From contig CP141135.1 in NCBI GenBank assembly GCA_035236585.1, positions 7,598,001-7,662,000 of the forward strand: a DNA stretch of 64,000 nt. Reading direction: 5' to 3'. The position numbers and the translations under genes were made by a program. The notes beneath the pieces are model-generated. The model did not search any database, had not been told where the DNA came from, and was given only the letters and a program-made list of their open reading frames with translations. Position 1 is the first letter of the stretch, and each line of letters begins with the position of its first letter. The DNA comes from Warburgia ugandensis (taxonomy: Eukaryota > Streptophyta > Magnoliopsida > Canellales > Canellaceae). Below, piece by piece: positions 14,650 to 49,160 of the stretch.

Positions 14650-15269
14650 CCCACAGATTTCAATCCAATTGATTCATCATTCAAATTGATGTGGTCGTGC
14701 TAACAGGATATTAGAAACTAAGAGAGATCCATGCCAACTTTGGCATGGAAAGGAGGAAGTGAAAACAATGAAGTTAGGCTGGAAACGGGGACAAGCAGAA
14801 GCTTAAGGCGATTGAGCGTCTTGGCATAATTTCATAGAATCTCCCAAATAAAAAACTGTCGGATGGCATATTGTTGTATTTTGTGCAAGGAATACGAATG
14901 GCGTTGTCAGTTGGTTTTGACTTGCAATTTTACTCTCAAAAGGAACACGCTATCATTTTACTATCGTCATAGCAAGGGCAGCAACGAGTGGCAGATCTAT
15001 CATAGGGGTCTTGCTGTAAAAAATAGGCCATTTTTGTTTTAAAACCGGGTAAATGAAAACTACTGATAAAATTACTAAAATGACTTTTCATTTCAAAATC
15101 TCATAACTTCTTTGTCTGAACTTCTATATTAGTGTTTTTTGGATTGTTGAATTCGTTTTTTCAAGTATAATCTAGATATTAATGTTTCAATACCTGGTTT
15201 GGCTTCTATGAAAAGCTCATTTTTTAGAATTCAAAACTAGAAATTCTATTTTTTCCTTCCTTCACAATA
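14650..15269. other. intergenic, nothing recognised
   Basis: AT-rich sequence between the Au SINE and the decayed LINE. No coding character or repeat structure seen. Confidence 0.4.
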
Positions 15270-16940
15270 AAAATTATAAGAAATCAGTATTTAAAAATTA
15301 CGATTATTACAATAAGCCCTAGAGGTAGGGTTAGAAGATAGAATCAAGAGATAGTGCTAGGAAGATATATATAGTAATGCAAGAAATACAAAAGGGTATT
15401 TATAGGAATAGACATAAATAGTTATATAAGAAAAGAAAATAAAGGACATAATAGGGTATAGTATTGGAGAAGAAATAAAAACGGAAAAAGCTATCTTCAA
15501 TTTTGCTTTAACATATATCTTAGCTTTAACAAACACATACTTTAAGAAGAGGGATGAAAACTTACTAACCCTTAAAAATAGATCGTATAAAAGCCAAATA
15601 GATTTTTTTCTACTTAGGATTACTGAAAAATCAATGTGTAAGGATCGTTAGGTGATACCTTGTGAGACTTTAAACATACAACATAGGTTAATGGTTATGG
15701 ATCTTTACACTAAGATATGAAAAGAAAGAAAATTAACTTAATATATATCTAAAAACTAAGTGGTGAAACTTATAAAAAGAGAAAATAGCATTATTCACAA
15801 ACAAGTTGATGATAGAAAGAAAGTGGAATAATGAAATAGAAGTAAATTATGTGAACTAATATGGCTAAGTCAGTTAAGAAAGTGGCAAAAGATGTTCTAA
15901 GAGTATTTAAAGGTAAAATGCAACCAGTAAAGAAAACTTGCTGGTAGAGTAAAAAAGAACTAGAAATAACAAAAACTTTGAGGATCACAAGAACGCTAAA
16001 AAGGTACTAAGAGAGTAGCAAGTAATGTTAAACTCAAGATGTATGATGATCTCCATAATAGATTAAGGTCGAGAAAAGTTGAAAAAGATGTGTCTAAACT
16101 TTCAACAAATAAGAGAATAAAAAAGTAAGCACTTAGATCATGTTAAATGTATTAAAAGTGTAACCTAATAATGGTACTAGTAAAAAATGATGAGATGGAT
16201 GGAGGTGAGAAAATTACTTCAAAAATTGCCAAAATAACAAATGTTCTATAAATATAAAGAGTATAAAGAACCTCCACATAGTCTTTATTACTTAGAAAAA
16301 TCTTATGATAGGGTCACTATAAAGTTAATTAGTAGGTGGTAGGTGAGAAAAAGGTTTCAGTGGAGTATATAGACGTAATTAAAGATATATATGAGAGAGC
16401 AATTTGGACCACTAGTGGAAAGACTAAGATCTCTCTATCACTATAGGATTGCATTAGGAATGGGCACTGAGCCCATACCTTTTCACGTTAGTCATGGATG
16501 AGTTAACAAAATATCTACACAAAGTTTGATTGATCAGACAAGGGAGAGTGTAAACACAAAAGTGGATTTGTAGAGAGATGCTATAGAAATTAAAGAATTT
16601 AAAATTAGCCAAACTAAGACAGAATATATAAAATGCAATTTTAGAAATGAGTGAATTAGGAGTGAAACACCAATAAAGATTGATAAAGAAGTTCATCAAA
16701 AAGATAACTTTTGATACTTGAGATTGAAAACTTATGAGAGTGAAGAGGCTGAGAAGGATGTTTCCTAGGGAATACAAGTAGATTGTAACAAATAGAGATG
16801 TGCCTCTAGAGTTGTATGTAATCACTGAGTGCCACTCAAACTAAAAGGAACATTCTATGCAATGATTGTAATGCTGGCCATGCCCTTTGGATCAGTGTTA
16901 GATAGTTAAGGAACAATATATACTTAGGATGAATGTTGAA
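15270..16940 (+). mobile_element. decayed RTE LINE (end of endonuclease through reverse transcriptase)
   Basis: Colinear with the RTE copy at 61656-64000 and with the one starting at 47256. 15325-15480 matches 62219-62398 (AAGAGA..GGAAGATAT..ATGCAAGAAAT), 15530-15620 matches the 62461-62530 region (CTTTAAGAAGAGGGAT), and 16290-16330 reads like the motif A segment (LEK-YDRV). Every frame is full of stops and short indels, and neither end is intact. It is clearly the oldest of the three RTE copies here. Confidence 0.8.
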
Positions 16941-18713: not shown

Positions 18714-21363
18714 CTAAGGATTCGTGCTATGTTTCTTGTTTACTTGAGTTGAATGGACAGCGCTTCCAACTTCCACAGGTTGCACCAGCTTCAGTCTCTC
18801 CTTGTATTCCTGCATTTCTCTCTTGTACCTCTCCTTATCCTTCATTCCACAGTCCTGATAGACCTGTAATACCACAAATATAGCAACCAAATGACCAGCC
18901 ACAAAATGAGTAATCAACAAAGAACTAATAACTTAGGAAGATTGACATCTGTACTCCCTTGCTCAAGAAAGTTACCAGTTTGGACTGACATTATTTACAA
19001 GAAACCTTTTTTTTATTTTTTATTTTTTATTTGACGTTGTTAGCCGGAACCATTCATCTCGAGGCCTCAACTTAGGCGCATTCAACCCTCAAAATCTTCT
19101 CCTTTGTAAGATAATAACCCTGTAATCAGTACAACGTTCAACATTTCTTCTACACTTTCTTAGTCGTCAATCATCCACTACAATGTAATAGCAGTTAGGA
19201 TCATCTGATGAAGATGTTTTCTCTAGTGTATACTGATCCAAATGCACACCAAGTAATGGAGGCATGCCTTCCCTTAGAAAGTTTGGCTAAACTATGAACC
19301 TATCCACACTTTTTAAGGCATGATATGTAGGCACTCGAAAGGCTACTGTCTAGCTTCATTAACAAACTTTCCAAAAATCAAAGGATCAAATTACGGTGGA
19401 GAGCTACAACCGAGTCATCCACAGCAAATTATACCAGATAAACGGTCAAGTTTAGAAAGTTTGCACTAAACTTTGAACCTATCTACATTTTATTAAGACA
19501 AGATATATAGGCATTCGAAAGACTACTGTCTAGCTTCATCAACAAACCTTCCAAAAATCAAAGGAACAAATTTCGTATGAGAACTACAACCGAGTCATCC
19601 GCAGCAGGTTATACAAGATAAACGGTCTAGTTGATTTGAAGGTTAGAGCCCCCCACTGTTACTTTTCATTCAAATACAACTTCACTGAAGATATGTACTT
19701 CACCATAGAAGAACCCCACCTTAACAGAACATGTTAATGGAGATATCATACCCATAATCATAGACACAAATCAATATACTAACCATCCTTTCTTCTTGGG
19801 TGAGTTTATTCCAAGACTCTCCAATCATCTTACTGAACTCTCTTTCTCTCCGTGGGTAGAGCAACTTGAGCTTGGAGTGCTTCTCAGCAAAGAAGAAGTT
19901 ATAGCCGCTGCGGTTCGGTTTCGGATGGCCAGGATCACGTCTTCTCCGATCTCTCTTCCACCGGCGACGAGGGCGTGGAGGAGGAGCACTGTAAGGAACT
20001 ATGGCATTTTCGGTGGTCACAGAAGAAGTTGATCCCCCTGAAGATGGTGGGTGATATAGTATCCCTCGAAAGGTCTCCGAACCTATCTTCACTGTCACCA
20101 AGTACCCGTGGTCGAACTTGCCATCGATCAGTCCGATCACTGGATAGTTTACTGGCACTAAGAAACAAACAAAGACGATGAATAGAGAAGAGAATATGAA
20201 CAAATGATTTCTGTAGCTGATGATTTAGGTGAACTAGGAATGACTCGGACGAGTTAAGCCAGGTAGAGAGTATGTCTTTTTCTGAGTCATTGAAAGTAGC
20301 CGTCTGAAACTAGCATGGCCACGTTTCTTAAATGAAAAACCAGCCAAAGGGGCAACTTAACAAAGAGTCAAAGACGAGTCAACTCAGTTAAGTTGCAGGG
20401 ATAAAGCGAGTTGCACTAGTATTTTCCAAAGGTTAACATATAACTCACCTCCCATTTGAGTTGCTGAGAAGTTTCTTCTCTTCCTCTGATTCTGCTGCTG
20501 TTGCTGCCGCATTTGCTCAGTCGCAGACTCAGCTATTGCACCAGAGAGATTCAATGAAGGAGTCTTCACAGATATTGTCACTGCTGAAAACCCAGAACCA
20601 GAAAATGATCAAACAAAGCCGAAGAACAGACAGAAAGATACAACAAAGCTGCATTTACAGAGAGAGAATAACAAAACAGAAAGATTTCATCTGTCTCTGT
20701 ACCACGTACCTGCTGGAGGAACCAAAGGCCCCTGCAATTTGAAGAAGTAAACCTGCTCAAAATGATGTAATAGAGTAATGTAATACTTCCTCAGAACAAA
20801 TGAAGCGCTTGTTGTTGTGGGCGGGAACTTGAAGACTGCTATCACATCCTTCCACTTCTTCTCTCCAACAACCTAGAAAAATGACATTGACAACCATTTT
20901 TTGTAACTATCTTGACCCGTTTCGAAAGAAATACATAAACAATCTCTTCAATGCTGCAACCTTTTCAAAGCCTCCCCTGCTTGTCACTTCCCAGTATAGG
21001 AGATGCAAATCCAGCTCCTTCCCTCCAATCACCGGAATCCTTGAAAAATCCAAATAAAATAAACCCAAAAACCATTTCAAACAAATAAAGAAGCCCAAAT
21101 AAGAGACTCGAAGTAAGATTCAAGATTCTAGCAAGCCCAAATAAGATATTTGAAGTAAGATTCAAGATTCTAGCAACATCATTTTTATCAGAAAAAACTT
21201 ACAAGAATCTGGTACCAAGAGAAGAATGAAAATGGCGGAGGGTATCCATGAAAAGTGTTGGATTTCTGGTAACTTCTTCATGAGTAGCTACTGGTGTAGG
21301 ATAAACCTTAACATCCACCACTTCCGACGCCTTTTTTGTGGCTTTGTTCTCTGATTCCGTCAT
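18714..21363 (-). CDS. ARID and HMG-box DNA-binding protein (HMGB9/10/15-like, 6 exons, complete)
   Basis: Plant-specific ARID-HMG protein, a nuclear DNA-binding factor. Coding exons in transcript order: 21203-21363, 20961-21039, 20710-20872, 20449-20580, 19784-20157, 18714-18863. All are GT-AG, total 1,059 nt, 352 aa. The ARID spans roughly residues 33-121: [59 protein letters not shown]-rich/basic linker follows near 160-175 ([14 protein letters not shown]), then the family's conserved middle block [20 protein letters not shown] basic stretch [13 protein letters not shown] is a likely nuclear localisation signal. The HMG box (about 257-325) reads [29 protein letters not shown], then [17 protein letters not shown]. 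The start is the ATG at 21363; the reading frame continues upstream only to a TTG. There is no acidic tail as in HMGB15, so it is closer in form to the shorter paralogues. Confidence 0.95.
19275..19630 (-). repeat. 178-bp tandem duplication in ARID-HMG intron 5
   Basis: TAGAAAGTTTGGCTAAACTATGAACC.. (from 19275) is repeated from 19452 (TAGAAAGTTTGCACTAAAC..). The copies share TACTGTCTAGCTTCAT, TTCCAAAAATCAAAGGA and CTACAACCGAGTCATCC blocks at the same offsets. Both lie wholly inside the intron between the HMG-box exons. Confidence 0.88.
21094..21177 (-). repeat. 42-bp tandem duplication in ARID-HMG intron 1
   Basis: AAGCCCAAATAAGA......GAAGTAAGATTCAAGATTCTAGC occurs twice back to back (about 21094-21135 and 21136-21177) with few differences, which suggests a recent slippage event close to the branch-point side of intron 1. 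Confidence 0.85.
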
Positions 21364-25615: not shown

Positions 25616-28600
25616 CTATATGTAATATCCTTAATTTTTAAGATAAAAATAGGAAATTATTAAATAAATTAAAATAAAAATTTATGGATGAAATTCTTTC
25701 CTGAAAACATAATAATTAGGAAGTGCTCGTCGATACGAATCCAACGCCACCAAGAACGCGAAAAACGGAGCTCAAACGAGGGAGTTATGAGCCGTCAAAG
25801 TTGGAAGGGCAATTTGGTCATTTGGTAGAGACGTATTAGACAGGGGTCCAAATTGATACTGGCACCCCTGTCTTCCACACGTCTCTACCAGTGCCGGAAA
25901 AATCGCCGGAGAGACGTGGAAAGAGGCGTGTGGGGAAGAGTTTCTCTTCCCCAAGACTCTAAAACCCTATATCTATGCTCCTCTAGGAGCCAAAACGCTC
26001 CACTTTGAGCGTTTTCCATTAATGCTACGCAAAACCCTAGACCTGCAAAAATCTGAAGTTTCCGGCGAGTGGAGCCCCGGCAACACGAGCAACCCCGACC
26101 AGGCACAAGGTAAGCCTCAAATCCGTGTTTTTCTGTATTTATTAATTAGAAAATTAATTAGGGAAAGTATTTAAAAATTAGGAAAAAATCAGATTTTTAG
26201 GAACTTTGTGCACACTACTGTTGGAGCGTGATTTCACGGATCAAACCTAGTCCGTTTGAAAATCTCACCGTCCAACTAGTGCACAAGAGACCCAAGAGCA
26301 TACCCTTTAAATTTGGGAGTGATCCAACGGTGGATTTCTCCAGAAAACTCAAAAACCAGTACCTAGGGAGGTTTTTAGGAACTTGGGAAAAATCGTTTAA
26401 AAACCATGGTTTTTGGCAAAATCAGTGCAAAAGGAGGGCATAAATGGATTCTAGAGAGAATTCTGAAGAAAATGGCGCAAAAATCACCCAAAACGGAGCC
26501 CTGTAGCTCCGCCGGAGGCGACCGGAATCCGGTCGTCTTCTCCGGCATCGTCAACGGCGTCGGCGCCCTGCGCTGACGCCAGGACGCACTCCATGACGCC
26601 CGAGGGACGACGTCACATGACGTCGTCGTCGCATGCGTGCGCGGCGCCGCGCCCGTGCGGGGGGAGAAGCCAGTGGCAGTTGCGGCGGAGCTGGGACGCG
26701 GCGCGTCCTAGCGACCGTGACGCACGCGCGGTGCCGAAGACGCACGGCGCGCGTCCCGTAAGACGTCTGCGTCTGCGTGCGTCTTCGTGCGCCCGTGTAC
26801 GTCGGTGTAAACCGGCGGAAAAGGGTGCCGCCGGTTTAAACCACCTTATGGTGGTCCGGCAGGCCCCATTTTAGCGTAGTTTTCACTAAAACTTGATTTT
26901 TGGGAGCTAGAGAGGTCCAAATCACGATCCGGAAGAGGCGTTGTGACCGTATTGACGACGCGGACTTAGTTTTAACTTAAAAACTTAGAAATGACCACTT
27001 TTTATTTAGAAAAATTTTTAAATAGTGATGTAACATGTACAGGTGCACTTGAATATACCAATTAAAGGGAGTTATTAGCAAGCTAGTGATCTCACACTGA
27101 GGTAGGTGACGACAACTAATGTTTTGCCTTGATTTTAAACCATGTTTAAACAATAGCATCATGTGTGATTGTGTTTTAAAATGCAATTATTATTTACCGT
27201 GGATTTCATGCTACATTGCGTACAGGATGGTTTTTCCAAATTGAAATCTTTTACTGAATAAACTTATTTCAAATGCTTTTACAAGCATGATGTTAATTTG
27301 TTATGCTTACTTAGAGATTTATTTCTTATTATATATATAGAAAATGCATGGATTTACATGGAAATGAGTATAGAGGCTTAGTAAATTTGGTCCTTTTATA
27401 GGCTAACCCCAGGATGAGGGGCATGTCTTGGGGATTTCAAGCTATAAGTGCTCTTGAGTTTTAGCATATACATATGATTTCCGTGTTTTATATTTGATGA
27501 CGGGTGCTCTCGCCCGGTGGGCGTCATGCTAGGAGGGATAGGGCCGGCCACCCACCTTCCGAGATTATGATGTGATGAGTTTGTGATATGATAGACACCT
27601 GCCCATAGATGGCATTCGGTAGGGGTTTGGTAACATGGATAGTCCACACTATCGGTCTGAGCCTTTCCATGGGGACAGACGTTAAGTCTCCCGTTATGGT
27701 GTCGACGGGGAGCGGCGGTGGTTGATACCCATGGAGGGTTGCCACCGGCAAAGATGATGGCCCATATTCTTGTTATGTGTGCATGTATGATGAGCATGGT
27801 TATAGATGGTATGCACAGGTGTGACGACACTCAGAGGTTGACTATGTGTACTCCTGATCAGGGATGTTAGTGCGATGTGGTGGGACCCATTACCTTAGGG
27901 TGCCCTTATTCTTGTTGTATGCTCCATGTTATTGATTCATGTCATGTTTTAACTCAGTGAACTTCATGTTTTAGCATTTGGAATAAATTGGCATTTATTT
28001 GAACATGGCATTATGATATCACTATTTCCATAAATGTTAGACTTTTCATCAATGTTGTTCATTATTTCTTGCATTTATTACATTAATTGTCTATGTACCT
28101 ACACAAGCGATAGCTTGCTGAGGCATTGCTTTGTTTTGCAATGCCTTAGATCTCGAGCGCGACACCAGGAAAGGAAATGCGGTTGATAAACCTTGAGAGC
28201 TGCTGAAGACTAGTTTCCCTATAGTTTTAGACAGTAATGTGAGTCATTAGAGTGGATTATCATTTGAATTTCATTATGGACTGCATACTTTATATTTGGA
28301 TGTGATTTAGATCTTTGGACATATATTGGACATTTATATGGGATGTTATGATGGATAGACCCTGGGCCATATTATTATTGTCTTTTGGACGTTTATTTGA
28401 TTTAAAATAAAGGCGCCTATTTATTTGACGTTGATTTATACGCAGATTATTTATTTATGTTTAAATTACATGTACGCCATTTTGAGAAAGGAAAAATTAA
28501 CACCCGGAGTTTTAAGATAGGTTTAGTAAAATGTTGAATAAATCTTTTCTCATGGGATCCCAAATGCTCTTATTTAAATTGCCATTATAAAAAAAAAAAA

Positions 28601-28631
28601 TTGTCTTAAAAATCCGGGGTGTGACACTATA
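25616..28631 (-). mobile_element. solo LTR 'A' (3,006 bp) with exact 5-bp target duplication
   Basis: The LTR occupies 25621-28626, starts TGTAATATCC and ends GGGGTGTGACA (5'-TG...CA-3'). It is flanked by CTATA at 25616-25620 and 28627-28631. Read on the minus strand it starts TGTCACACCCCGGATTTTT, matching the starts of LTRs C and D in forward orientation. It shares CCTCAGCAAGCTAT with D (here about 28105-28125) and the block near the 3' end CTC.TTTGAGCTCCGTTTT..GGTGGCGTTGGATTCGTAT with C and D (here 25730-25792). No second LTR or interior is present, so it arose by LTR-LTR recombination. The size and termini are of the kind seen in plant Ty3/gypsy (Del/Tekay-like) elements; the lineage is inferred, as no coding interior is present. 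Open frames inside it are chance. Confidence 0.92.
26495..26845. other. CpG-rich block inside LTR A
   Basis: About 350 bp of very GC- and CpG-rich DNA in otherwise AT-rich surroundings. It has an inverted pair of ACGT motifs, GACGTCA-CA-TGACGTC at 26609-26624, and a near-palindrome CGACCGGA.TCCGGTCG at 26519-26535. It lies about two thirds along the LTR in its own orientation, upstream of where transcription would start. Open frames on both strands (26551-26745, 26593-26874) reflect the lack of AT-rich stops and are not genes. Confidence 0.8.
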
Positions 28632-29205
28632 GACTCAATCTTAGGGATTGATCATCGATCCTATTTCAAATGGGATATGGGATCCTATAATCACTAATAT
28701 ATCAATGTTGTCTATTATACCAGCAAGTAATGAGATAAAGTAGGAGAGATTGATAATTGAGGAATTGGCTGAAAGATGGATTACTATGTTGTATAAATTG
28801 CAACTTGTTCATTTGTACACAAGCCACGAACCAAAAATGCATATAATTTCATACATAGAAACAAATGATGGAATATATAAACAAATAGATTTTACTTTGG
28901 GTCTTCAAAACAATTGAATCACAGATAACATTATATTAAAAGAAAAGTAAATAAAAAAATTACATAGTTATGGATATAAAGTACTAGCATCTTCAAATAA
29001 GATAAGCCTAATAAGGTCTAGTACAAAATCCTTCCAAACAAAAGTTTTTGGATAGGAAATAGGAAAATTTTGTCAATAAATCAATAGCCTAATTTCCCTC
29101 TCCAAAGATATTAATAGTGCTTTGGAGAGAAACCTAGGGGTGAATTGATCCCACTCCATGCATCATCCTCTTCGTCTCCCATTGCAACAACTTGTCCTCC
29201 TTGTT
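28632..29205. other. intergenic sequence between LTR A and the nested LTR element
   Basis: AT-rich, with no gene or repeat recognised. Confidence 0.4.
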
Positions 29206-29211
29206 GACTCT

Positions 29212-30532
29212 CTCTGTCACCCGATGTTTTGATGATACCATAACTAGATAAGGGAATATTATGATTTTGACAAGAAATCTTGCTTTTGAATACTCCAAGA
29301 TCAATACGAAGTCATTGATCATTTTTACTTTTTTTTTCTTAAAGATTTGGATGTTTTAGGATGATCCATAGATAAATAATCATTTAAAACTTTGATTTTT
29401 TCAAGTGTCATGATCATTCATTACATTTTCTTCAAGTTTTGAATTTTTGTTAGTGTTCTATATGGTCATTTGTTGATAGACAACCAAAACGGATCAAATA
29501 ACTACCAATACTAAAATTAAAAATGCAAGTTTTTGGGGTAGCTGCCGACATACTTGGGAACTAGACGCCCTTTGCCAAACAAAAGAATGTCTTTTCCATC
29601 AATGGATAAGTCACCCATTGACGAATGGATGTCTGCATTTATCAATGGACTCGATAGTTTCTCAATGACAAACAATGCAAACATTTTTCTTCTTGATCTC
29701 ACTTGATCTTTATCAAAATTGCTAAAAATTTAAAGGCACATTCTATTTTATTTAATCTTTATTATGAATGGATCAAATCGATATTTGGATTCATGGATCA
29801 TGAGTTTTACGAGATTAAAGATCAGTTGAAAAAGTTACTCATTGCTACTCAAAGGCTAGTTTTTAAAATCACCCAATTCTAATGGTCATTTGATATTAAA
29901 GAACATTGGAGGAACATCTGGAAATGATGTTCAACAGATCTCTCAACCTCAATAATAAATTGGATGTCAATCCAAGCAAGTTTAACAAATAAAATTTTCA
30001 AGCTATTCAAGTAAAATCATGCAAGTATTCAAGTTTTTCAATTCAAATATCAGCAAAAAAGTGTACTCCTTTTAAATCAATTTTGGAGGACTAAAGCAAT
30101 CTCATTGTTCTCAAGCATCATCAACCAACAAGCTCCAATATGGATTTTTTCAATTCCAATTTGGTGGAGTCATTTTATTTCACTTATATTGTTTTGAAAT
30201 TCAAGTCTAAACAAGTTCTTTCTCTCTTTCTTAAACTTAAGTTTTTCTAGTTATTCAAGAGAGTGTGTTCCCTTGGTTAGTAATTGGGATAGTTTATTGA
30301 TTGAGTGGTGTACTCAACTACATTGTAAAATGTAAAATGTAAGTCTTCGGGTATAATATTCATTGAGATTAGTAGAGGAGTCAAGAGAAGGGATATCCTT
30401 GAGAGAAGGAAGCAAATGTCATATATGCTGGTTGAACCTCTATAAAATTCTTGTATCTTATGTGATTGTTTGCTTCAATTCTTCTTTCATCCACAAGTGC
30501 ATTCGGTTTTACTTGAGCTTAGTTTTCAATCA
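29212..30532 (+). repeat. 5' LTR of the nested element
   Basis: Homologous along its length to 37090-38643. It carries a single copy of the ATCAATGGATAAGTCACCCATTGA-type block (about 29595-29650), where the 3' LTR has two. Confidence 0.82.
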
Positions 30533-31729
30533 CAATTTAATTGATCCACCTTCTTGTATTAATAAGGTATGATATAGGATATATGTCACGCTTGTGTCCT
30601 AAATAGTGGAGTAAAATGTAAGGATTAGCTATACATTCTTCGCATGATCTTTGGAGAAGCAACAAAATGCTAGTACATTCATCACAAAATAAACAAGATA
30701 GACCTGAACATCATCTTCTTGTATTTTCCTTCAGAAAAATGAGAATCTTAATTAGTTCAATCTCTCCCAATCTACTGACCACCCAACACGGCTTAGCAAA
30801 TCTCAAACATGAATGGGAAAAGATGTTCCCTTGCCTGTGGACCTTAAACTTGAGAAGAATTAACAGAGGGTTGGAAGCTCCAATATATGGTAAATTATGC
30901 TAAGAATGTCATCTTCTTCCTCAATTTTATCAACCTCTAAGAGAAGCACAAATAGTAATAAACAAGAATAGACTTTGACGTCTCATGTTCAACGGTTGTG
31001 AAATTTATAAGACAACACGATTTTTTTTGGAGAGCATGATGTTGTTATTTTTCTCTAGTTACCAGAATAATAATAAAGCAGATTGCTTCAAAAGCTTTTT
31101 TAGACCTTAAGGTACTTAGTTTGTGTTCCTATATAAAATCCCATTCTTCTACCTGCCAACGAAGGCCATTTAAAGATACGTAAGTAATTTGGATAGCGAC
31201 CAATTGGTGTGCAGATCCTTGATCTAGATACATGAGGTTAGATTAAGAACATGGGGAAAGTAGAGCTAGAAGTGATTTTAGGAACTGGCATGAAATTCTG
31301 AAATTTATTTAGAACTGGTATTTGTTGCAAAGGTTTGAGAGCAGTGTGAACGGCTCTAGCAGTAGAACTTTAAATTGTACACGGAGAGCAAGTAAGGACC
31401 CTGAACCCTTTCATTCCTTAAATTCTTGTTGATCTGCTCTCTTGAAATTAACTTTATGCATGTGTAAAATGTATATATTGTCACCTTGGTTCAAGGGATG
31501 ATAGAAATTGTAATTTCTTATTAAAAAGGGTCATGTTATAGTATGATTTACTATACTTAACTGCTGTGATGATGCAAACTGTTATAAAATGGTCAAGCCT
31601 AAGATAGTAAGCCCTGAGCGCTACCCGGTAAGCTATGATGACGCTTTCTAAGATGGTAAACCCTAAGAGAAAGGGCTACCTGGTTGCTTGCAACTAAGGT
31701 GAAGCCACCCAAGACAGTAAATCCTGAGG

Positions 31730-34412
31730 ATTGGTGTGACAACCTGGGTTTTCCCATGCATTTTTAAATGAAAAATCTAAATTCCTAAGGTGGGATCCCG
31801 ATTTGAAAAACAGTGCAATGCAGCGGAGAAATCTTTTATTTGAAATTCAATTTGAAAACCCCTAGTGTCATTTGCTTTCACAACAACCAAGGTAGCTTTT
31901 GAAAAAAGCTTTAGAAATCATAACCGTTTTTCCCCAGGTCTATCCAGTCACAGCACATAGCCCAGCTGTAATTAAATACAAATACATGTCCAAAGGGTAG
32001 AGAGTTTACTCACATGTATAGTTGTCTCCTTTGTTTATTCACTTGCTCGTAGCATTAACATAGATGTCCTCTACTCATGGATGGAATCATCCTGAAAAAA
32101 TGTTAAGGATAGGGTGAGTATATACTATACTCAGTAGGAGTCTATCACTACTAGTTTTATAATGCATGAGATGTTTTAAAATGATATGCCCTTTCAAATC
32201 ATGTGCGAGTCTGAATACTCAATTTCAATATCGATAATAAAAATCCGTTGTCAAACTGAAATACTAATGTCTTAAGAATCTCACAAACCAAGTTGAAAGT
32301 ATCATATATATCATAACATAATGATATGCATAAGATGCTTCATTGAATCCAACTCATGGATATCTATCATGGTATGGTTGACCAACCTTATATCATGCCA
32401 TATGCAATGCACATAAATCCACGAAACCATAGGGTCCCACTATGCCCACGACCTCACCGCCATGGGGTCCCCAGGTACTTAGGGACATAGGATCATATAC
32501 CTCCACGGGGCATATGACACTTATTTGTCATAAATCATGCAATTTATGCAATCGGTTGCAAAACGTGCATGAAATGCATAAAATCTGCTCATGCTAGTAT
32601 TGCATTCAAAGTCATAACCCTGCCTAGATGCCTAACAGCCTAGAAGCCTGCCAGCCTAGAAGCCTTGTCAGCTCTCTTTGGCCTGCCCTCATCAGCCCAC
32701 CCTCATCAGCCTGCCCTCATTGGTCAAGGCTACACTTATCATGCAATCTATGCATGTAGCACATGTCTTGGCAATATATGCGCGATGTATTTTTCAAAAC
32801 CTGTCCTCTTTGGGTCTCTCACAACTGCCTGGCCTCGGCAATTCAGCGTCTTTTGGTAATCCTCAAGGACATGCAATTTTTGCAAGAACTAAATCATACA
32901 ATGTATGCAATTGTTTGCAAAACATACCTATGCATAATGTATATGCAATCATTTACAAAACATGTCTATACATAAAGCATTTATCACATGCATGTTGAAT
33001 TAATGTCATGCTAAACAAGTCATATACTTAAAACATGTGTTCTCAAAACAATAATAGTTCTTTTAAAAGAATCTAGTAGAGATAGAACACCTACCTGACT
33101 AGGTCGCGCTGACCCATTTGTCCTCGTACGCTCCTAAACATGGTTTGGGGACTCAAGGTTAGTTTAGCCCATCTTTTATGGGTTTTAGAGTAGCCGGGTC
33201 TTATTACTTAGGCATTAGGGGTCCATCCCTATGCCTATGGGTGTCTTAAGGTCCTAATTGGGCCTTGGTATCATCAATTTTTCAAAGGTCTAGTGGCCAC
33301 GCGCCACCATCCTATTCTAAGAGTCATGCCCACCTTTGATTGGTCCTTGATCAGGGATTTTATAGTTTGAATGTGTCTGTGTCGTCGACACAGACACAAT
33401 GCCTTTTGCGGTGCCTCAATCGGAGCTCTAGATCTCAAGTTATAAGCGTTTTAGTGTCGTATGTATATAGGAGTCTTAAAAATAAAAAAAACGGAATGTT
33501 AGGGCGCTGCGCGTCTGCGATGTGCGCCCTGGCTTCCTTAAGGAATGAAAAAAAAAAAAAAAAAAGTGTCGCTAGCGCACTGCGCGTCTACAGACGCGCC
33601 GAGTTTTTCCGCTTTTTCGCTCTTTTGCCAGGACGCGCCCGTTGGTTTTCTTCATACGCGTTCGATGCGTCACATTCCAACTGAAACGTCTTCGTCGACT
33701 GGGGGACCGGGGTGTCCTCAGGACACCCTGGTTCGACCCTGTCGAACCAGTGCGGCCCAGGGGACGTCCCTAGGTCCTTGGTGGCTCTCCCAGGCTCCGT
33801 TTTGCATGGTTTTTCATGCAAAAACCTAGGGAAATTAATCTTGGAATTATGGTGGAGATGGGTTTTGAGGGATTTTGGGCGTACCTGGCTCGTTGCTGGG
33901 TTTTTCTCCTTGTTTTCCCCTCTAGGTCACTACTCTTCAACGGGTTTTCTTCCATGTTTTGGGCTGCCATTAGAGGCGCCAAAGAGCTCTATTTATAGAG
34001 CTAAGAGAGGGTTCTAGAGGGGGCTCTCACCGCCTTTGAATGGTAGTGGAGAAACCTCCAGAATGGCGGTGATTTCCCCTCCAATCACCGGCGTTCTAGA
34101 ACTCTCTAGGAGGTGGAAGATGAAGGGTGCCCGTATCAAAATGGGCCCCTGTGTTTTGCAATTAAATCCGTTTGTAAAAATTACAGTTTTGCCCCTATAC
34201 CTCAAAGGGCCATAACTTGCTCATTTTAACTCCGTTTTGGGTGATTTTGGTCTTGTTGGATTCCTTTTTCTGAGACGCATCTAATGGTACCATTTTTAGG
34301 ACCAAGTTTCTGGGTTTAGTCAAGGAGACTGAAATGACCAAAATGACCTTATCTTTAAAACTGAACTTTCATGGGATTTTAATATTACAAAAATTGGGGT
34401 CATTACAATTGG
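31730..34412 (+). mobile_element. solo LTR 'C' (2,673 bp) with exact 5-bp target duplication
   Basis: The LTR occupies 31735-34407, starts TGTGACAACCTGGGTTTT and ends GGGGTCATTACA. It is flanked by ATTGG at 31730-31734 and 34408-34412. Inside are a TATACTCAGTAGGAG block (about 32125-32148) matching the CTCAGCAAGCTAT block of A and D, a GC-rich block at 33500-33690, and near the 3' end CCATAACTTGCTCATTTTAACTCCGTTTTGGG..TTGTTGGATTCC (34209-34265), matching A. It sits inside the tandem array of LTR B. Open frames within it (32665-34205) are chance. Confidence 0.92.
33988..33996 (+). promoter_or_regulatory. candidate TATA box of LTR C
   Basis: CTATTTATAG lies about 300 bp after the GC-rich block and 420 bp before the LTR end, a plausible U3/R boundary. 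LTR D has GTATAAAACCC at the corresponding place. Confidence 0.45.
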
Positions 34413-36046
34413 ACTGTCTGGTATTGAGCCTCCCAAGATGATAATTCCTGAGGGAAAGGGCTGCCTGGTTCGTTGGAATCATGGTGGAGCCGCCCAAGAT
34501 GGTAAACCCTAAGGGATGACCTGTCAGGTATTGAGCCTCCCAAGATGGTAATTCCTGAGGGAAAGGGTTGCCTGGTCTTTTGGGATCACGATGGAGCCGC
34601 TCAAGATGGTAAACCCTGAGGGATGAGCTGGCATATTAAGTTACTCAAGATGGTAAACCCTGAGGGAAAGGGTTGCCTAGTTGATTTCGACTAAGGTGGA
34701 ACCACCCAAGATGGTAAATCCTGAGGGAACCTGACTTTGGCGCTGCCCAAGATGATAAATCCTGAGGGTTTGGCTGCTTTGATGAGGATACACATAGTAG
34801 GCCGGCCAAGATGGTAATACTTGAGCAAGATGACTATTGAATCCTGGTGTAATGCTAGGCATATTTAATATTATTGAGAAAATTATCAATGAGTATGCAT
34901 CTTTGTTGGATGTAACGCTCATGGCTTGCATTTAACTTTAGAATGAAGTCCATGACTTAGTCACTCATCTATTGAATGTCTTGTTGTACTGAACCCAAAT
35001 GGGAAATCCGTATTGGGTGTGCTTGTTTGCATGCGTTGACTGTTGCGTCATATTTGAATTTGGAAAAAAAACTGTAACTCTGCTCTAATACCCATAGGCC
35101 TTACTTGATAGCACATGCTAACTACGTTGTATATGACTAGTTAAAATGGAAATGAATGCTCATGTTATATTGAATATGTTTTTAAGCGTAGCAATGAGAA
35201 TGACTGGATATGCATGGGTTTAGTTCTTTTCCCTTATTGGGCTTCGCAGCTCGCCTTATTATTTTGCATGTACCAGTCAGGCAGAGAAGAGAAAGGTCGT
35301 TGAGTGAGTTGAAGAAAGCTTGCTTGAAGATGTTAAATTTTGAGTTGTATATAAATACATGTATATATGTGTTAATGCTGTAAACGAGTTATATCTTATT
35401 TTTGACACTGATCCTTATGCATCATATATGTCTTATTATGATAGACAGTATGGAGATTGAGTCTCCCTTCAGGAAATTATGATTGATATATTGTCTATCA
35501 GATGAACCGCATAGCATGCGTTAAATGCATAAGTCTAAAAAACAGAGGAAACTGCCAAAATTTCAGTAGGACTCGGTTGTTAAAGGAGAAAAATATTTTA
35601 CTAGTAAACTGTGACTTGCACAGGACAAGAGCATCTAGCTCTCTCAACACTTCCGCTGTGAAATAAATTATGAAAAAAAAAGAGAAGCAAGGTCATGTAG
35701 GCCTAACTTGCCCAATCATTAGGCTTGATTAAGGCAAATCACGGCCCTGGGGATTAGGGTTGTGACAATATAGGGTAAAAATTGTATTAATAAAGTATGA
35801 CATGTTAAAAGGTTAAATCATAATTTACTAAGTATTAGTCAATTGTATGAGAGTCAATACTAAGTAAAATTTTAATCTTCTTATTGTCTCTTAGTTAATA
35901 AGGATGATAAATTTGTCAACTATGTAGGATGTAGAAATGATAATATGTATTTGTTTGATTTCGATTCATATGATTCAAATCAAAAGTGCTTAGCATCACA
36001 AAAATGTGAAATTGCATAGCAAGGAAGAAGAGTTGCCATTTATCCC

Positions 36047-36510
36047 ATGACATTTTTTCAACTTCTAGAGGGAGCAATAAAGACTCTCTATCCTAATACT
36101 AATGAATTTGGCTACAACACGCTTGTCAACATGAAGTTCAAACTATTTGACGATTCTACATGGATTAGAGGCAATGGAGTGCCAAAAGAGTTATGCATCT
36201 CCTCAAGACTAAGCTCCATCATAGAATGTGGAATAGATAGAAGAAGAATAAGAAGAAGAACTAGCACAAGAAAATATAGTTCAAATTCAAGAAGCAAGAG
36301 AATCCTCTAGGACCAGAGGAAATGACCACACTGATTATGATAGAATAGTTAGCATGTTTAAGAGACTTGAGACCAGAATTAACAGCATGAATGCCAGACT
36401 AAAGATTGGCACAAGGATGGATGCAATGGAAAAGAGGCTTGGTAGTTGGATGAAGAGGATTGAGATTTTCTACTTATTTCTCAAAGTATTCTTCATGAAC
36501 TTTTGTTTTT
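36047..36510 (+). pseudogene. remnant open frame in the interior of the nested LTR element, function unknown
   Basis: From the ATG at 36047 comes MTFFQLLEGAIKTLYPNTNE... to about residue 87, ending in an Arg/Ser-rich tail. In a shifted frame downstream, GNDHTDYDRIVSMFKRLETR.., MDAMEKRLGSWMKRIE follows. This looks like a heptad-like helical segment such as is common in plant transposon-encoded gag-like proteins. No zinc knuckle, protease or reverse transcriptase is visible. The assignment to a gag-like product is an inference from position and composition. Confidence 0.35.
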
Positions 36511-37089
36511 AAAGTTGAAAATTTGATGTATTTGGACATCTTTTGGAATTTTCTTTTTGCACAATACTCCACACTTTCTTTTGTTAGCTATCTTATGCTG
36601 CATTATAAGCTTAGAATCATTCTTTAATGCCCTACCATGTAGTTACTCTCCCATATTGTATGAATTGAATGCTTTCCCATAGTTAATTATGAATAAAATC
36701 TCTAAGAACTTGATGGGCTAAATGTAATTTTCAACATTTTAAGATGAGCTTGTATAGCTCAACCTAAGAAATAGGGGGAGCTTCTCTTATAATTTTCAAG
36801 ATTAGTTATTTCATTATGCTAATATTGTGTGGGAGATATATTATTTCTCTTTCAACTAACCATTTTTAGCCGGAGAAGCTACAAGTTATTTATTAGTCTC
36901 TTTCTCCCTCTAAGCCACTTTTTTGCTTATGGTGAAAGGAGAAGATATTTGATAGCTCAAGACAATGAATATGGTTGTTTGATTGTATGCGTTTTCTCAA
37001 GGAGAGTTTTTCACTTTAAAAATGATGTTTCTATTTAAAAAGTCCCCAAGTCTTGCCCTAAGTTTTGTCACCATTAAAAAGGGGGAGAT

Positions 37090-37092
37090 TGT

Positions 37093-37176
<84 letters not shown>

Positions 37177-38643
37177 GATGTTTTAATGATAACCTAATCA
37201 TTGACAAAGGAGTATTAGGATTTTGACAATCTTGCTTTTGAATACTCCTAGATTAATCATTGGTTTAATCTAAAGTGATTGATCATTTTGATTTCATTTC
37301 TCAAAGATTTTAGAAACTTTGATTTTTTTCAAATGCCATGATCATTCTTTGCATTTGTTTCAAGTTTTGAATTTTTTTCAACATTTTAGATGGCCATCTA
37401 TCTACTCACAAGTCACCCATCGATGGACAAGCAAAATATATTAAATAAAGCTAAAATTAAAATTCAAAATCCAATTTTTTAGGGTGCTCGTTGATTTACA
37501 TATTGTTCATTGAAGGGCTTAGGGATTAGATGTTTTCTACCATACGGAAGAATGCCTGTGTCCATTGATAGACAGGTCACCCCATTGATAGATGAATGTC
37601 TGCTTGTTGATGGATGGCTTAGCCATCAATGGACTCAAGGACTAGACACTCTCCTAGATAGAAGAATGCTTGTATCCATTCACTGGCAAGTCATCCATCA
37701 ACTGATGGATGTCTGTGCTTGTTGATGGATGCTTCCCCGTTGAAGGACTCAGCAATTTGTAAGTGACAGATAGTGAAAATATCTTTCTTCTTAATCTCAC
37801 TTCATTTTTATAATCAAAGGATGAAATTTTGTAGGTACACTCTATTTTGGTTGATTTTTGTTATGAACAAATTAGATCATCATTTGGATTCATGGATCAT
37901 GAGTTTTACAAGATGAAAGATCAATTGAAAATTTTTATCATTGCTGCTCAATGGCTATTTTTTAAATTTGGCTAGTTTTAACTATCATTTGACATTGAAG
38001 AACATTGGAGGAACATCCAGAGATGATACTAAATAGATCCTTGAGCCTCAATAATAGATTGGCATCCAATCCAAGCAAGTTTAAGAATCAACTTTTCAAG
38101 TTATTTAAGCAAAACCAAGCAATTCTTCAAGTTCTCCATTTCAGAGATCAAAGAAAGGATGTGCTTCAATGCAAATCAATTTTAGAGGATTGAGAGCAAT
38201 CTCATCGTACTCAAGTATCATCAACCAAGTGCTGCTTTATCCTCAACAAGCTCTTGTAGGAATTCTTTCAATTCCAATTTGGTAGAATCATTTTATTTCA
38301 CTTGAACTTATATTGTTTGAACTTCAAATTTATACATGTTCTTTCTTTCTTAAACTTGAGATTTTTAAGTGATTCAAGAGAATGTGCTCTTGTTAGGAAC
38401 TGGGTTAGTTCCTTGATTGACTGGGGTACTCAATTGTATTGTAACCAGGCAAATTGTAAGTTTGGGGTTATAATATACAATGAGATTGGTAGATGTCTCG
38501 AGGAAAGGGATATTCTTGAAAGAGAGGAAGTAAGCATAATTTAGGCTGGTTGAACCTTTATAAAATTATTGTGTGGTTGTTTGCTTCAATTCTTCTTGCA
38601 TCTAGAAGTGCACTCACCTTCACTTGAGCTTAGTTTCCAATCA
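37090..38643 (+). repeat. 3' LTR of the nested element
   Basis: Directly follows the polypurine tract. It is 233 bp longer than the 5' LTR. The (CT)n run at 37096-37174 and a tandem duplication of a 115-140-bp block (about 37509-37645 and 37646-37760, each with CCATTGATAGACAGGTCA-like text and TTGTTGATGGATG) explain most of the difference. Confidence 0.82.
37096..37174 (+). repeat. (CT)n microsatellite, about 79 bp
   Basis: Nearly perfect CT repeat starting six bases into the 3' LTR. The 5' LTR has only CTCTCTCTG at the same place, so the run expanded after insertion. Confidence 0.95.
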
Positions 38644-38692
38644 CCTCATGATAAATCTTTTCTCATATATCAAGTCGTTTCATTTCTACTTA

Positions 38693-39640
38693 GTTAAACT
38701 TGACTTTGAGCATTTCCTCACTCTCTCTTGCATTCAAGATCTGAAGTTTTAAAATTCTAAGACACTCTGCGAAGGCCCAATTCAACCCCATCTTCAGACA
38801 ACACTCCTGCTCCCCTCCCCTAGCTTGAAGAAATGTTAATAATTTGATCATGAGCATGGAGTCCCCTTCCATTTGGACATTACATAAACCCATCTCACAG
38901 ACGATATTAAGACACAAAAAATAAGGCACACCATTCTGCAAAGTTTTTAGTTTTGTGACCCAAAGAGACATAAAACACCACAATCAATTTTCCAAAGTGC
39001 TCACGAATAATGCCATCAGCCGCAGCCACTCCTGGATTACCTCTGCTGGCACCATCAAAATTAAACTTGTGTTGGTGTCTAAGAGACTCAGGTAACAAGA
39101 GGACAATTTTGCTCCAACCCAACCCGATGCCATCAATTAAGGAATTCAAGCTGAGAAAGGTGAAACACATTTGACGCCCTGCCAGCAAGTTCTTGAACCA
39201 AAATGAGCATGAATTTCCGGATTTTTCCTCTTGGGAGAGGGAAGATGAGTGAATCAATGAGTTTCTGAAATTCCAAATAAATCACGCCAGAACAGAGCCG
39301 GCAAGGCAAAACAAGGTGCCTTGTCTACCATAGAAAGCTGGTTTCAAGAGAAGAAAAGAATAGCCTCTAACTCGTTTTAGGAAGAAGTGATTTGGAGTGA
39401 TCCGAAATTCATTCCAAAGGGGGGAAATGGAACTACAGGAGATTACAAGGAAATTTGATTCCTCTTCCACAAGACAGAATAAGCATCCACTCTGCGCCGC
39501 ATTAGGGTGCCAACAAGTAATACTTTGAGTAGGGAGAAGATAAGCAGATGCATGTGCAGGGTGAAAGACAGGTTCCAATCTAATAACCGAATGACTTCGA
39601 AGTGGAATGAGACATGGTGATCAAAACTCAATCTTAGTCT
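38693..39640 (-). pseudogene. L1-like LINE remnant: zinc-binding knuckle and RNase H
   Basis: Transcript order on the minus strand: 39631-39282 gives a zf-RVT-like segment (..AAQSGCLFCLVEEESNFLVIS..SPLWNEFR..) with the C-x2-C arrangement. Then 39257-38907 gives the RNase H start HKFNFDGASRGNPGVAAADG and GHKTKNFAEWCALF. 38983-38690 continues in another frame with MCNVQMEGDSMLMIKLL-like text (read from the sequence as CNVQMEGDSMLMIKLL). Frame changes and stops break it. It starts only about 50 bp beyond the 3' LTR of the nested element. Confidence 0.8.
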
Positions 39641-40556: not shown

Positions 40557-40733
40557 GGCATATTGATATCTATAGAGTGTAGTCCACGAGATGGATGGTC
40601 TAGATCTAATACGGAACTAGCCAGAACCTCTTGCCCGTCCCCCTCCCCCCGGTTACATCATTTTGCTATTCCCAGCAGTACCTAACATTTGGGCCTCCTG
40701 AAAGGCTGAAACAAAATCAGAGAGAGCGAGGGT

Positions 40734-40844
40734 ATGGGGCTGATGGCCAATCTGGTCGGCGTCTCTTCTTTCCCGCTCTTCTCTCGCTCTCCACATCTCT
40801 CCCCTTCCCGTACTTTTTCTTCTTCAGCCCGTTTCAAGGTACTG

Positions 40845-40882
<38 letters not shown>

Positions 40883-43800
40883 AAGTTTTGGCTGACTAAA
40901 CTGGAAACAACAACGTTGGCATTGCAGAGTCTGGCAATACGACCCGTTCGATGCTTTGCGTCTCGAAACACCGACGCTGAAACGGATACGTCGTCTTCTT
41001 CTTCTCCTAGCAGTATTTCGACATACAACTGGTGCGCGGCGCTGGGGGGTATAGGGTTTGTCGAGACTGGATATTTGACATACCTCAAGCTGACGAATTC
41101 CGCTGCTTTCTGTCCTATAGGAGGAGGAACTTGCAGTGATGTTCTCAACAGTGACTATGCTGTTGTTTTCGGTAGGATTCCTATTTCCTTTTCGGCTTCG
41201 CGCGCTGTAATTTTCATCTGCCTAATATGCTTTTGGGTGCGGATCCAAGTTTCAATTTTGGGAATTTTTGGATTAGAGCTGAAAATGGACGCCCAATTTG
41301 CAAAAGACTGCTTTTTGGTTGTACACTGGAAAAAACTGTTAGTTGCCCTGCAGTAATTCAATTTTCTGGTATTTAATTGTTGAAATTTCAGTGTAAGCTG
41401 GCTGTTGATTGGGATTACTTAAAGTTCCTTCCGTTCTTTCGTTGTCCCCGTCTTCATTTTTTGTCAATTTTAATGGGTTTCCTTAGAATAATGTTTGGTC
41501 TTTGTTTAAACCGTGAATTATAGGTTTCAATCGCATAATTGGAACTCGAAGAAGATGTACATGTGAATAGGAAGTTTATTGCTTGCTTTTTGGAGTGTTC
41601 CTCGATTGTAGCTTGGAACTACTAACAATTTCTTGATTAAGTATTTTTCCATACTTGCTGGTGGTTCATGAGTCGTTGGAATGTCCATGTACCTTCCAGA
41701 ACCCGGGGGGTTTTCTGGAGGGCGGTATTGGAGAGGATTCAAACACTTGATGTTTTGAAGCGGAAAAGCTTCTATTTGAGGTTTGGTCTCTATAATTGTA
41801 TGGAACAACTTGTCAAGAATATTCTAGTGACTGGCTCAATGTGTGGGGAAGGTGGCCCGCAAATGATTTCAAATGCTTTCATTGGCCAGGAATCTTTGGT
41901 ATAGCTAATTCCATGGATAGTAATGCACACATTTGAGAAGAAGGCGGCGAATTCCTTTGCTCTTTACCTTTTGCTCTGATAGATGTTATCAGCAGAAAGA
42001 ATCGAAAAATGTTCATTGTTCAAGTATCCTAGCCCGATGTCTTGGAAATTCAAATATATGTCTATAACTTAGGCATTGCTGAGGGAACAGTTTTGCGAGT
42101 GTAAATGCAAGATTATTATGTCAGGAAAGAGATTAAGGACTGGTTCGTGGCACAGAAGCTTGTTAGACATCAGAACTTAATATCATGGTAAAGGCTTGTC
42201 AGACACCCTCTTCCATCAAAACTAGACATCAGGACTAGTTTATAGCAGAGAAGGTTGTCAATCTGATTATTTGATATCATGATAAAAGATAGCAGGTCTT
42301 TAGATGCTTTCAGCTTATGAAAACAGCAGATTCATGTGAAACCTAGAAGACATGGTAAACAGTGGCCGAGGAAGGAGTCAGATCATGATGATTGTGGGTG
42401 GTGAATCTATTACTGACTAAGGTAACTATCTAGAGTGGGGTTTGGGTTTTTTGACTAAAGGTTAATTCTGTAATTTTGACAAGATTGACAATTTTGCTGT
42501 TGTTTTTTCTCTACTATAGCTCTTCACCTGTTCCTTTGAATTTCCTTTTCTGCAAGGCAGTTGCTTTGTGTCTTTATGTTCTTTTTAACTTATATTTATA
42601 TGTTGAATTGTCATTGGTTACCATAATGAATGTCTGTATGACTAGCAGTTTATACCATTACATTGCAGGTGAATGATTTGAAAGAGGATTTCATGATTGA
42701 TCGTTTTGCCCTTGCCAGGTGTCCCTCTTCCATTAATTGGTATGGTTGCATACGGATTAGTTGCAGCTGTTGGTCTGCATCTGGCTGGAAAGAATTTACT
42801 TTTTGGACTAGGTGAAACCAATGCCCGGTTGGTTTTACTTGGGAGCACTACATCGATGGCAGCAGCTAGTGCTTATTTTCTATACCTCTTAAGCACAAAG
42901 TTAGCAGGAGCATCATGTTCATACTGTTTATTTTCTGCTTTTCTAACTTTCAGCATGTTCTTCATTACTTTGAAGGTGAGTTTTGAAACTTTATTATTAG
43001 AATAAATTAATTTTGATGAACCATAGACAGTCAATGACCAGTTAATTGCTATATTTATGTGATAGGATTTTGGGTTGGATGAGGTGCAGAAAGTGGTTGG
43101 ACTGCAGTTATCAGTTGCTGCCATTGTTGTTGCTGCTTTAAGCGCTTCATATAGTAGCCCTCGGTCTGAGGTGACTAGGTCAGTCCTTTAACCTGAACAT
43201 TCTAAACTATCACTTCTGTATTCCTAAATTTATTTGATTCCAGGCAGCATTTCTTTCTTTCTGTAGCTTTGTCTTCATACTGCCTGCTGTCGCATGTTTT
43301 AGACTCCATCAGTGTACTACAAACTTCCTGCCATGTAATTGATTATGTAATCTATAATTATTTTAGTCAATTGAGAATGATGACATTTGTGGATGTTGGA
43401 ATGAGTTCTGCATGTTGAATAGCATGAAGGCAAACTGTCAAAGAGTGAAACTTACTCCAGCTCCTGTCATTTTTATTTACTTTGATAGCAGAACTCCATT
43501 CATTCTGACATACTAGGTCTTTATACATTGAAGAAGACAGTTAGGATACCTTCATTTTCAACTCCTATGATTATTGGGTGCCCAAAAATGCCAATGTGGT
43601 ATTTCTCACATAGTTTTGAATTGATAGGATACTCTTACAAGGGGAATTGCATAAATGCTTTTTGTGGCTCAGTTTAGTGCGCATGTGAAGTCAGATAATA
43701 TCGCTAAGTGATGTTCAGCCTGGAGGATTGGGAATGCCATCACTTTGTGTATTTTGTGTATCAGTTATTCTCATACTAGTTATCTATAACAGTCCCCAAA

Positions 43801-47255: not shown

Positions 47256-49160
47256 TAAAGGAAACGTGGTGGTGGAGTGAAACAGTGCAAAAATTTATTA
47301 AAGAAAAATGGATGTGTTTTAAAGTATTACAGAAGATTAGAAATAACGAAAACTATGAACAATATAAGAATGCTAAAAAAGTTATTAAGAAAATAGTAAG
47401 TGAGGCTAAACTTAAGACATATGATGAGCTCTATAATAGACTAGGAACAAGAGAAGGTAAGAAAGATGTGTTTAAACTTGCAAAAGTAAGAAAACAAGGG
47501 TAAAGACTTAGATCATGTTAGGTGCATTAGAAGTGATGGTTAAAGGGTATTAGTCAAAGATAATGAGATTAAACAAAGGTCGGAGATATATTTTTCAAAA
47601 GTTGTTAAATGACAATGGCTCTGAGAATATAGGGATTGAAAATATTATAAATCTAATAACATTGGATATTATATTTATGAATGTAGGATTAGAATACTTG
47701 AAGTGAAAGAGGCTTTGAAAAAAATGAAATCAAGAAAGGCCATGGGGCCCAATGGTATACCGATAGAGGTTTAGAAGCATATGGGAGATATTGGGGGTAG
47801 TTTGGTTGATCAAGTTGTTTAAAAAAATTATAAAATCAAAGAAAATGCCTGATGAGTCAAGGAAAAGCTTTATTGTACCAATTTATAAGAGTAAAGGAGA
47901 CATACAAAGCTACACTAATTATCGATGAATTAAACTTATGAGCCACACTATGAAACTTTTTAAAAGACTGATTGAGAAGAGGCTACGGCATGAGACAAGT
48001 ATATCGGAGAATTAATTTGATTTCATGCCTGGGAGGTCTACAATAGAAGCTATTTTCTTACTGAGATAATTAGTAGAGAAAAATAGGGGAAGAGGAAAGA
48101 CCTCCACATTGTCTTTATCGACTTAGAAAAAGTTTATGATAGAGTCCCTAGAAAGTTAATATGGAGGGTGTTTGACGAGAAAGGGGTTTCATGGGGGTAT
48201 ATGGACATAATTCAATATATATATATATATATATGAGGGAGACGTAACAAATGTTAAGACCGCTAAGGACGAGATCAGTAATTTTCCTATCAATGTAGGA
48301 TTGCACCAAGGATTGACATTGAGCCCATACCTTTTCACGCTGGTTATGGATGAGTTAACAAAACATCTGCACGAGGAGATTCCTTGGTGCATGCTATTTG
48401 CAAATGATATAGTCATACTTGATGAGACAAGGAAGGGTGTAAACACGAAGCTAGAGTTATGGAGATGAGTATTAGAATTTAAAGGATTTAAAATCAGCCG
48501 AACTAAGATTAGAATATATGGAATGCAATTTTAGCAAGGAGAAGAGTGGGAGTGGGACACTAGTTAAGATTGATAACCAAGAAGTTCCCATAAAAGACCA
48601 CTTTCAGTACTTAGGATCAATGATTCATGAGAGTGGAGAGATTGAGATGGAGGTTATCTAGAGAATCCAAGCGGGTTGGAACAAATGGAGATGTGCATTT
48701 GGAGTTTTGTATGATCTGTGGGTATTACTCAAGCTAAAAGAAAAATTCTATAGGATAGTCATAAGGCCAGTCATGCTCTATGGATCAGAGTGTTGAGTAG
48801 TTAAGGAACATCATGCTCATAGGATGAGTGTCACAGAAATGAGGAGGTTAAGATGGATGAGTGGTAAGACAATAAAGGATAGAATTAGAAATGAAAATAT
48901 TAGAGAAAAGTTAGGGGTGGCACCAATGGATAATAAGATGAGAGAGATTAGACTTAAATGGTTTGGACATATCCAAAGGAGACCAAAAAAGGCACCGGTT
49001 AGGAGTGAGGTGATGCAAATAGAAAGTTCTAAAAGGGCAAGGGGAAGACCCAAAAGAACGTGGATAGAAGTGGTGAGGAAAAATTTTAAAACTTTGGGAC
49101 TAAATGAAGGCATGATACTTAATAAAAGAGGAATGAAGGAATAATACTCATATGGCCGAC
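47256..49160 (+). mobile_element. 5'-truncated RTE LINE (reverse transcriptase and C-terminal region)
   Basis: It starts within the region that matches 62853 of the downstream RTE copy (AAAGGAAAC.TGGT.GTGGA). RT-type motifs: AMGPNGIPIE (about 47740), motif A VFIDLEKVYDRVPRKLIWRV (about 48110-48170), GVSWGYMDII, and the GL.QG..LSPYLF..LVMDELT region near 48300-48360. A (TA)n run breaks the frame at 48211-48233. The C-terminal part 48824-49144 is open for 106 codons: VTEMRRLRWMSGKT, REKLGVAPM, IRLKWFGHIQRRP, RGRPKRTW. The 3' tail continues at 52767, after an inserted block. Confidence 0.88.
48211..48234 (+). repeat. (TA)n microsatellite inside the RT domain
   Basis: It replaces sequence that reads AAAGATATGTATGAGAGAGC in the downstream RTE copy (63813 on), so it grew inside a former coding region. 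Confidence 0.85.

Follow-up and report, generated by a model that had tools for sequence, protein, structure and literature searches.

Three reduced LTR retrotransposons nested in an older decayed repeat, with an insertion order read from nesting and uninterrupted relatives

Nested insertions and solo LTRs are standard matter in the literature on plants, and the nested LTR retrotransposons of plant genomes have been surveyed in 15 species (PMC7251063). About one fourth of the nested elements in the 15 plant species were reported there to show an LTR divergence higher than that of their hosts (PMC7251063), and we therefore take nesting as better evidence of insertion order than divergence. The locus described here is of the same kind as the nests of wheat and maize: younger elements lie within older ones, 5-bp duplications and solo LTRs are present, and the order of events can be read from the nesting. 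It differs from those nests in the reduced state of all three LTR elements and in its lowest level, an older repeat of non-LTR type. Such nests are commonplace in plants, and the evidence at this locus is unusually complete.

The window, the whole stretch of 64,000 nucleotides that was analysed, corresponds to C10:7598001-7662000 in a genome of 1,122,538,268 bases and 14 contigs (C1, C3, C8 and similar names denote contigs). Its elements and genes were plant-like in appearance. Outside the nest, ORFs with an HMG-box (19724-20224, minus strand, E 4.1e-6) and a C2 domain (60905-61384, E 7.8e-17) were detected, together with a VKOR-domain ORF (40610-41353, E 7.5e-10) that lies about 1.8 kb beyond the right end of the outer element and contains a CT run (40849-40879) inside its frame. 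A young repeat of high copy number has its right end at 27900-28626 and stops 575 bp before the outer element; these approximately 727 bases recur at 97-98% identity in at least 39 other places, as judged from the best 40 of 3057 candidates scored. In addition, a direct repeat of about 1.16 kb (47257-48412 and 62853-64000, 84.7% identical), to which further stretches at 15266-16936 are related, represents another dispersed element in the window.

We consider it very probable that the nest was produced by four successive insertions through ordinary retrotransposition, namely an old repeat, a copia-like outer element, element B and element C. In this history, an RNase-H-bearing repeat, probably a LINE, would have come to lie on the minus strand and decayed. 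A copia-like LTR retrotransposon would then have entered this repeat at CTCCT in plus orientation, after which its LTRs would have diverged to 77% identity and the tail of the 5' LTR, the primer site, gag and most of pol would have been lost. Subsequently, a Ty3-type element of family B would have entered the remnant at ATATA, in plus orientation; LTR-LTR recombination would have left one B LTR, from which approximately 1.25 kb of U3 would also have been lost. Finally, a family-C element would have entered the tandem array of the B LTR at ATTGG in minus orientation, and likewise one LTR would have been left. The target duplications at three levels and the family copies were observed directly, as were uninterrupted relatives for the second and fourth steps, that is, for the outer element and for C. 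The initial annotation had proposed a nest of three LTR elements, the outer one first, then B, then C, and this order was borne out; it had missed the lowest level, and with the older repeat the nest has four.

Element B occupies 30584-35767 on the plus strand between exact ATATA duplications (30579-30583 and 35768-35772). Its first part (30584-31734) runs from the 5' end to C, its last five bases being the first ATTGG of C, and its second part (34413-35767) runs from the tandem array to the 3' end GTGACA. A genome search with the right part of B returned 2073 candidates, of which the best 40 were scored, giving 20 loci including the window. Both the left end (31479) and the strand (minus) that the initial annotation had assigned to B were replaced. 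Among the 17 left-end rows listed, all but L011 share sequence left of 31479, so a start at that position was rejected; the shared sequence of the B copies mostly reaches 31189, and 30616-31193 or more is common to five other places at 94-97% identity. A 38-bp stretch at 30584-30621, beginning TGTCACG, recurs in 18 other places, seven of them near B copies (three on C4 and one each on C13, C6, C5 and C1), and it also opens both LTRs of the relative L063. A 5' truncation of B at 30617 without a target duplication was ruled out by this LTR start and the exact ATATA. The right end was seen in 16 of the 19 other loci, with sequences diverging from there, and in L005, L020, L061 and L063 it is followed by primer-site-like ACTTGGTATC, which indicated that B lies on the plus strand.

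A two-LTR relative of B, L063, exists on C6 and has its own exact duplication AGGCT on both sides. In L063 the two LTRs showed 94.7% identity across 2151 columns (part of the LTR only, compared before the true start was known), and the RVT_1 (E 3.8e-27) and SH3_Tf2-1 (E 1.7e-25) domains lie in Ty3 order. The presence of a reverse transcriptase and a Ty3-type integrase C-terminus in this two-LTR relative placed family B among the Ty3-type elements. We take the family to resemble the Tekay/Del chromoviruses, a label drawn from LTR length and the integrase tail, and the primer site of L063 is presumably tRNA-Met-like. Unlike chromovirus-like long-LTR elements of Ty3 type, B is represented in the window by an LTR only, carries a AAGATGGTAAACCCTGAGGG-type tandem array and has a deletion in U3.

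With a single LTR, both ends, exact ATATA flanks and no interior, B was confirmed as the solo LTR initially described, one with an internal U3 deletion. The joint of this deletion lies at about 30616-30621 and shows the short overlap AYGTAA. From the LTR start to the equivalent of 30619, the distance was 1285 bp in one relative (C4:42.17 Mb) versus 35 bp in the window, so that the window copy lacks approximately 1.25 kb of U3 relative to it. B is thus not simply one clean solo LTR, a point that weighs against the proposed history. The joint shows that a deletion occurred, and a credible alternative, if on balance a doubtful one, is that B is a 3' LTR left behind when that same deletion removed the 5' LTR and interior of its element. 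An identical sequence would result if the deletion had begun just inside the 5' LTR and ended within the U3 of the 3' LTR, and this path would require one event versus two for solo formation plus U3 deletion. Nothing decisive stands against it, and such a deletion would also keep both ATATA copies. For B we infer LTR-LTR recombination alongside the observed loss from U3.

The leftover interior of the outer element amounts to about 1.4 kb, comprising 50 bp left of B (the junction segment 30534-30583, plus strand, which links the outer 5' LTR to B) and 1322 bp right of it. A 2.3-kb interior with no recognisable polymerase genes had been reported initially; this description gave way to the smaller size and to a weak trace of copia pol. 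The trace lies in a remnant directly right of B (35782-36020, plus strand), in which a peptide from 35786 (three stops read as X) matched positions 57-81 of 81 in Pol_BBD with E 0.0047 and 17.7 bits, below the Pfam cut-off of 27. The same peptide contains HNLLSISQL, which we take to be a motif from copia pol. The Pol_BBD tail and this motif suggested that the outer element is probably a copia element, and a further likeness to Ty1/copia, which we assume to be characteristic, is the TGTTG with which the LTR opens after the polypurine tract. It is unlike Ty1/copia in being deleted, and no readable integrase, reverse transcriptase or RNase H of the outer element was found in the window.

The pol remnant 35782-36020 recurs elsewhere in the genome, as do parts of the outer 3' interior (36079-37074, plus strand), of which 36079-36628 recurs separately (17 rows including the window). 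In L045, as in the window, some 0.9 kb separates the stretch 36079-36457 from the CT run at the start of the LTR that follows. A possibly fuller relative was located on C5 (75.60-75.61 Mb), where 4923 bp lie between the counterparts of 35787-35993 and 36917-37092, compared with 924 bp in the window, and where an LTR match adjoins the second matched stretch; the difference of about 4 kb reflects either a loss in the window or a gain on C5. Pfam gave nothing useful for the ORF at 36020-36310. A frame at 36240-36510, before the outer 3' LTR, contains a coiled-coil-like stretch and a hydrophobic end and had no confident Pfam match (DUF6847 E 0.032, HSBP1 E 0.4); our impression is that it recalls the env-like ORFs of some copia elements. 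The tail of the 5' LTR and the primer site of the outer element are missing in the window. The segment 30534-30616 was considered as a diverged LTR tail and rejected, as 51-90% of 300 shuffles scored equally high against four tails.

A 22-bp repeat, identical at 20 of 22 positions, flanks B, with one copy in the junction segment (30554-30575) and the other at the start of the pol remnant (35782-35803). Its score was reached by none of 2000 Markov shuffles and none of 945 real stretches, and relatives of the outer interior begin matching at or after 35782. We tentatively put forward a reading, unlikely as it stands, in which 22 bp of the neighbouring pol sequence served as the template for filler that repaired the deletion in the outer element, and B then entered this fresh filler. 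If this were true, the site would record break repair between two insertions, and the deletion of the outer element would be placed before the arrival of B. The repeat may equally well be a plain small duplication.

The outer element spans 29202-38803 and is bounded by exact 5-bp CTCCT duplications (29197-29201 and 38804-38808). Its 5' LTR (29202-30533, plus strand) lacks about 159 bp of the 3' end, and its 3' LTR (37090-38803, plus strand) is immediately preceded by the polypurine tract TAAAAAGGGGGAGAT (37075-37089, plus strand), which the initial annotation had correctly noted. Comparison of 29202-30533 with 37090-38644 gave 77.2% identity and a K2P of 0.278 over 1276 aligned columns (182 transitions, 109 transversions; 335 gap columns), and the alignment covered the whole left copy. 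Identity per 100 columns ranged from 66% to 87%, and shuffled versions of the right LTR (n = 3) reached only 43-46% with the left. An earlier alignment with 10-bp flanks had given 76.3% and a K2P of 0.292. We assume a grass rate of 1.3e-8 per site per year, at which a K2P of 0.278 would correspond to about 11 million years, and at half this rate to about 21 million years. The relatedness of the LTRs first drawn at 29212-30532 and 37090-38643 was upheld, and the right end was moved from 38643 to 38803. Other family copies (L043, L044 and L054, with L049 in part) match the right LTR past 38643, to 38720-38762, and in the alignment of the ends of outer-LTR copies the likeness continues towards 38790. 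In L043, TACA is followed by ATTGGTTTAGAG, which we take to resemble the usual tRNA-Met primer site. Setting the right end at the matching ACA, 38803, gave CTCCT on both flanks; from local composition, the probability that a fixed 5-mer equals CTCCT is 0.0005.

Two LTRs, TG...CA ends and exact CTCCT identified the outer element as an LTR retrotransposon insertion. End-to-end alignment of the two LTRs, on which the initial annotation had made their pairing depend, was obtained for the left copy and failed for the last 159 bp or so of the right (38645-38803); the exact CTCCT and the placement of the two LTRs in a tree nevertheless mark them as one insertion. In a FastTree analysis of 16 LTR sequences (without L055, L057 and L060; L052 repeats L043), the two window LTRs were sisters with a support of 0.855. 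The branch joining them was short (0.021), which weighs against the proposed history, as does a C6 member of nearly the same similarity. That member, C6:61115470, was the best non-window match to the right LTR among those scored (74%). The search with the right LTR gave at least 48 matches, and no near-identical copy was present among the best 40 of 59 candidates scored, which suggested that the LTR family is old. Just within the outer 3' LTR lies a perfect 79-bp CT run (37096-37174). CT runs occur at the equivalent place in L043, L044, L045, L050 and L059, and since several family copies carry them there, the LTR start of this family seems to contain an expandable microsatellite.

Sequence comparison indicated that the outer element lies within an older, decayed repeat and divides it in two; on C8 and C3, copies of this repeat pass through the target of the outer element without a break. 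The left part of this repeat (28984-29201, minus strand, including the first CTCCT), an RNase-H-like remnant, matches C8:8958427-8958642. The right part (38809-39366, minus strand) has counterparts on C8 and C3, and 38837-39154 within it matches C8:8958670-8959005. The gap between the two C8 matches is 27 bp, compared with 28 bp expected once the outer element and one CTCCT are taken away. The same order was found on C3, where the equivalent of 29126-29182 is followed by that of 38825-39366. Alignments through the joint gave 135/198 on the left and 205/293 on the right for C8, and 88/149 and 191/295, respectively, for C3. A search with the left flank returned five rows including the window, and two of the four others match the left side only. 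The right part matched RVT_3 at positions 1-49 of 123 (E 0.0024), the C8 C-terminal piece at 105-121 of 123 (E 0.14) and the C3 N-terminal piece with E 0.075, all below the Pfam cut-offs. Pfam gave no RVT_3 for the two pieces beside the joint or for the peptide across the joined target of the outer element. These RVT_3 results, like the low Pol_BBD score, weigh against the proposed history, and with every RVT_3 score below the cut-off, the LINE label is a guess and the older repeat is the finding.

The identity of only 77% between the outer LTRs, the 74% of the C6 member to the right copy and the absence from the left LTR of a 3' end that is present in the right would also suit two independent insertions, solo or truncated, of a single old family. 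We regard this as very improbable, because exact CTCCT occurs at the outermost ends only, the C8 and C3 relatives of the flanking repeat continue without a break from flank to flank, and the right LTR is preceded by a polypurine tract and by a 3' interior stretch common to L045.

Element C occupies 31735-34407 as a solo LTR in minus orientation; it has TGT...ACA ends and exact ATTGG duplications (31730-31734 and 34408-34412). Its single LTR, both ends and both ATTGG flanks agree with its initial description as a solo LTR at these coordinates, a description that gave no strand. Exact 5-bp duplications around one LTR were found at seven of 20 C loci (the window, L025, L027, L032, L033, L039 and L040), and duplications with one mismatch at two (L022 and L023). 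Minus-sense primer-site-like sequence lies left of the relatives L024, L026 and L030, and minus-sense polypurine-type sequence lies right of L028, L031 and L037, indicating that the element to which the C LTR belonged lay on the minus strand. The remaining loci are incomplete or have neither signal. On C13, two C LTRs are separated by about 1.8 kb; their alignment gave 92.7% identity across 1873 columns (811 gap columns). The examined 1499 of the 1789 interior bases contained no ORF longer than 80 aa. In these respects C is like the large non-autonomous LTR elements, and no coding relative of C was found.

The AAGATGGTAAACCCTGAGGG array of B continues across C. The empty site of C was examined in 18 of the 19 other B loci (L005, whose alignment starts at position 155, was left out). 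Seventeen of these 18 copies run through the target, ten with exact ATTGG and seven with a variant such as AATGG, and one (L017) has a gap there. Removal of C therefore rejoins the array, as had been proposed. No B sequence above 60 bp was found in the 1.5-kb flanks of the 19 other C copies, and a targeting of the B array by C was rejected on this count (0/19). That C and B are parts of one composite element moving together, a possibility raised in the initial annotation and suggested by the place of C inside the B array, can be dismissed as extremely improbable, given the 17 continuous B copies without C, the 19 C copies without B in their flanks and the separate target duplication of C.

The right part of B had a K2P distance of 0.078 to the closest of the six copies compared, and C had one of 0.089 to the closest of three. 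Taken with the 0.278 of the outer LTR pair, these distances agree with the nesting order in part, a nearest-copy distance not being an insertion age. Since the value for C is not below that for B, the conclusion that C is younger than B rests on nesting, not on copy distances. The nest leaves the general view of retrotransposons unchanged. It provides a worked example of a four-level insertion history in which the order is read from nesting and uninterrupted relatives, not from molecular clocks, and such an example has value in that LTR divergence, taken by itself, can mislead.
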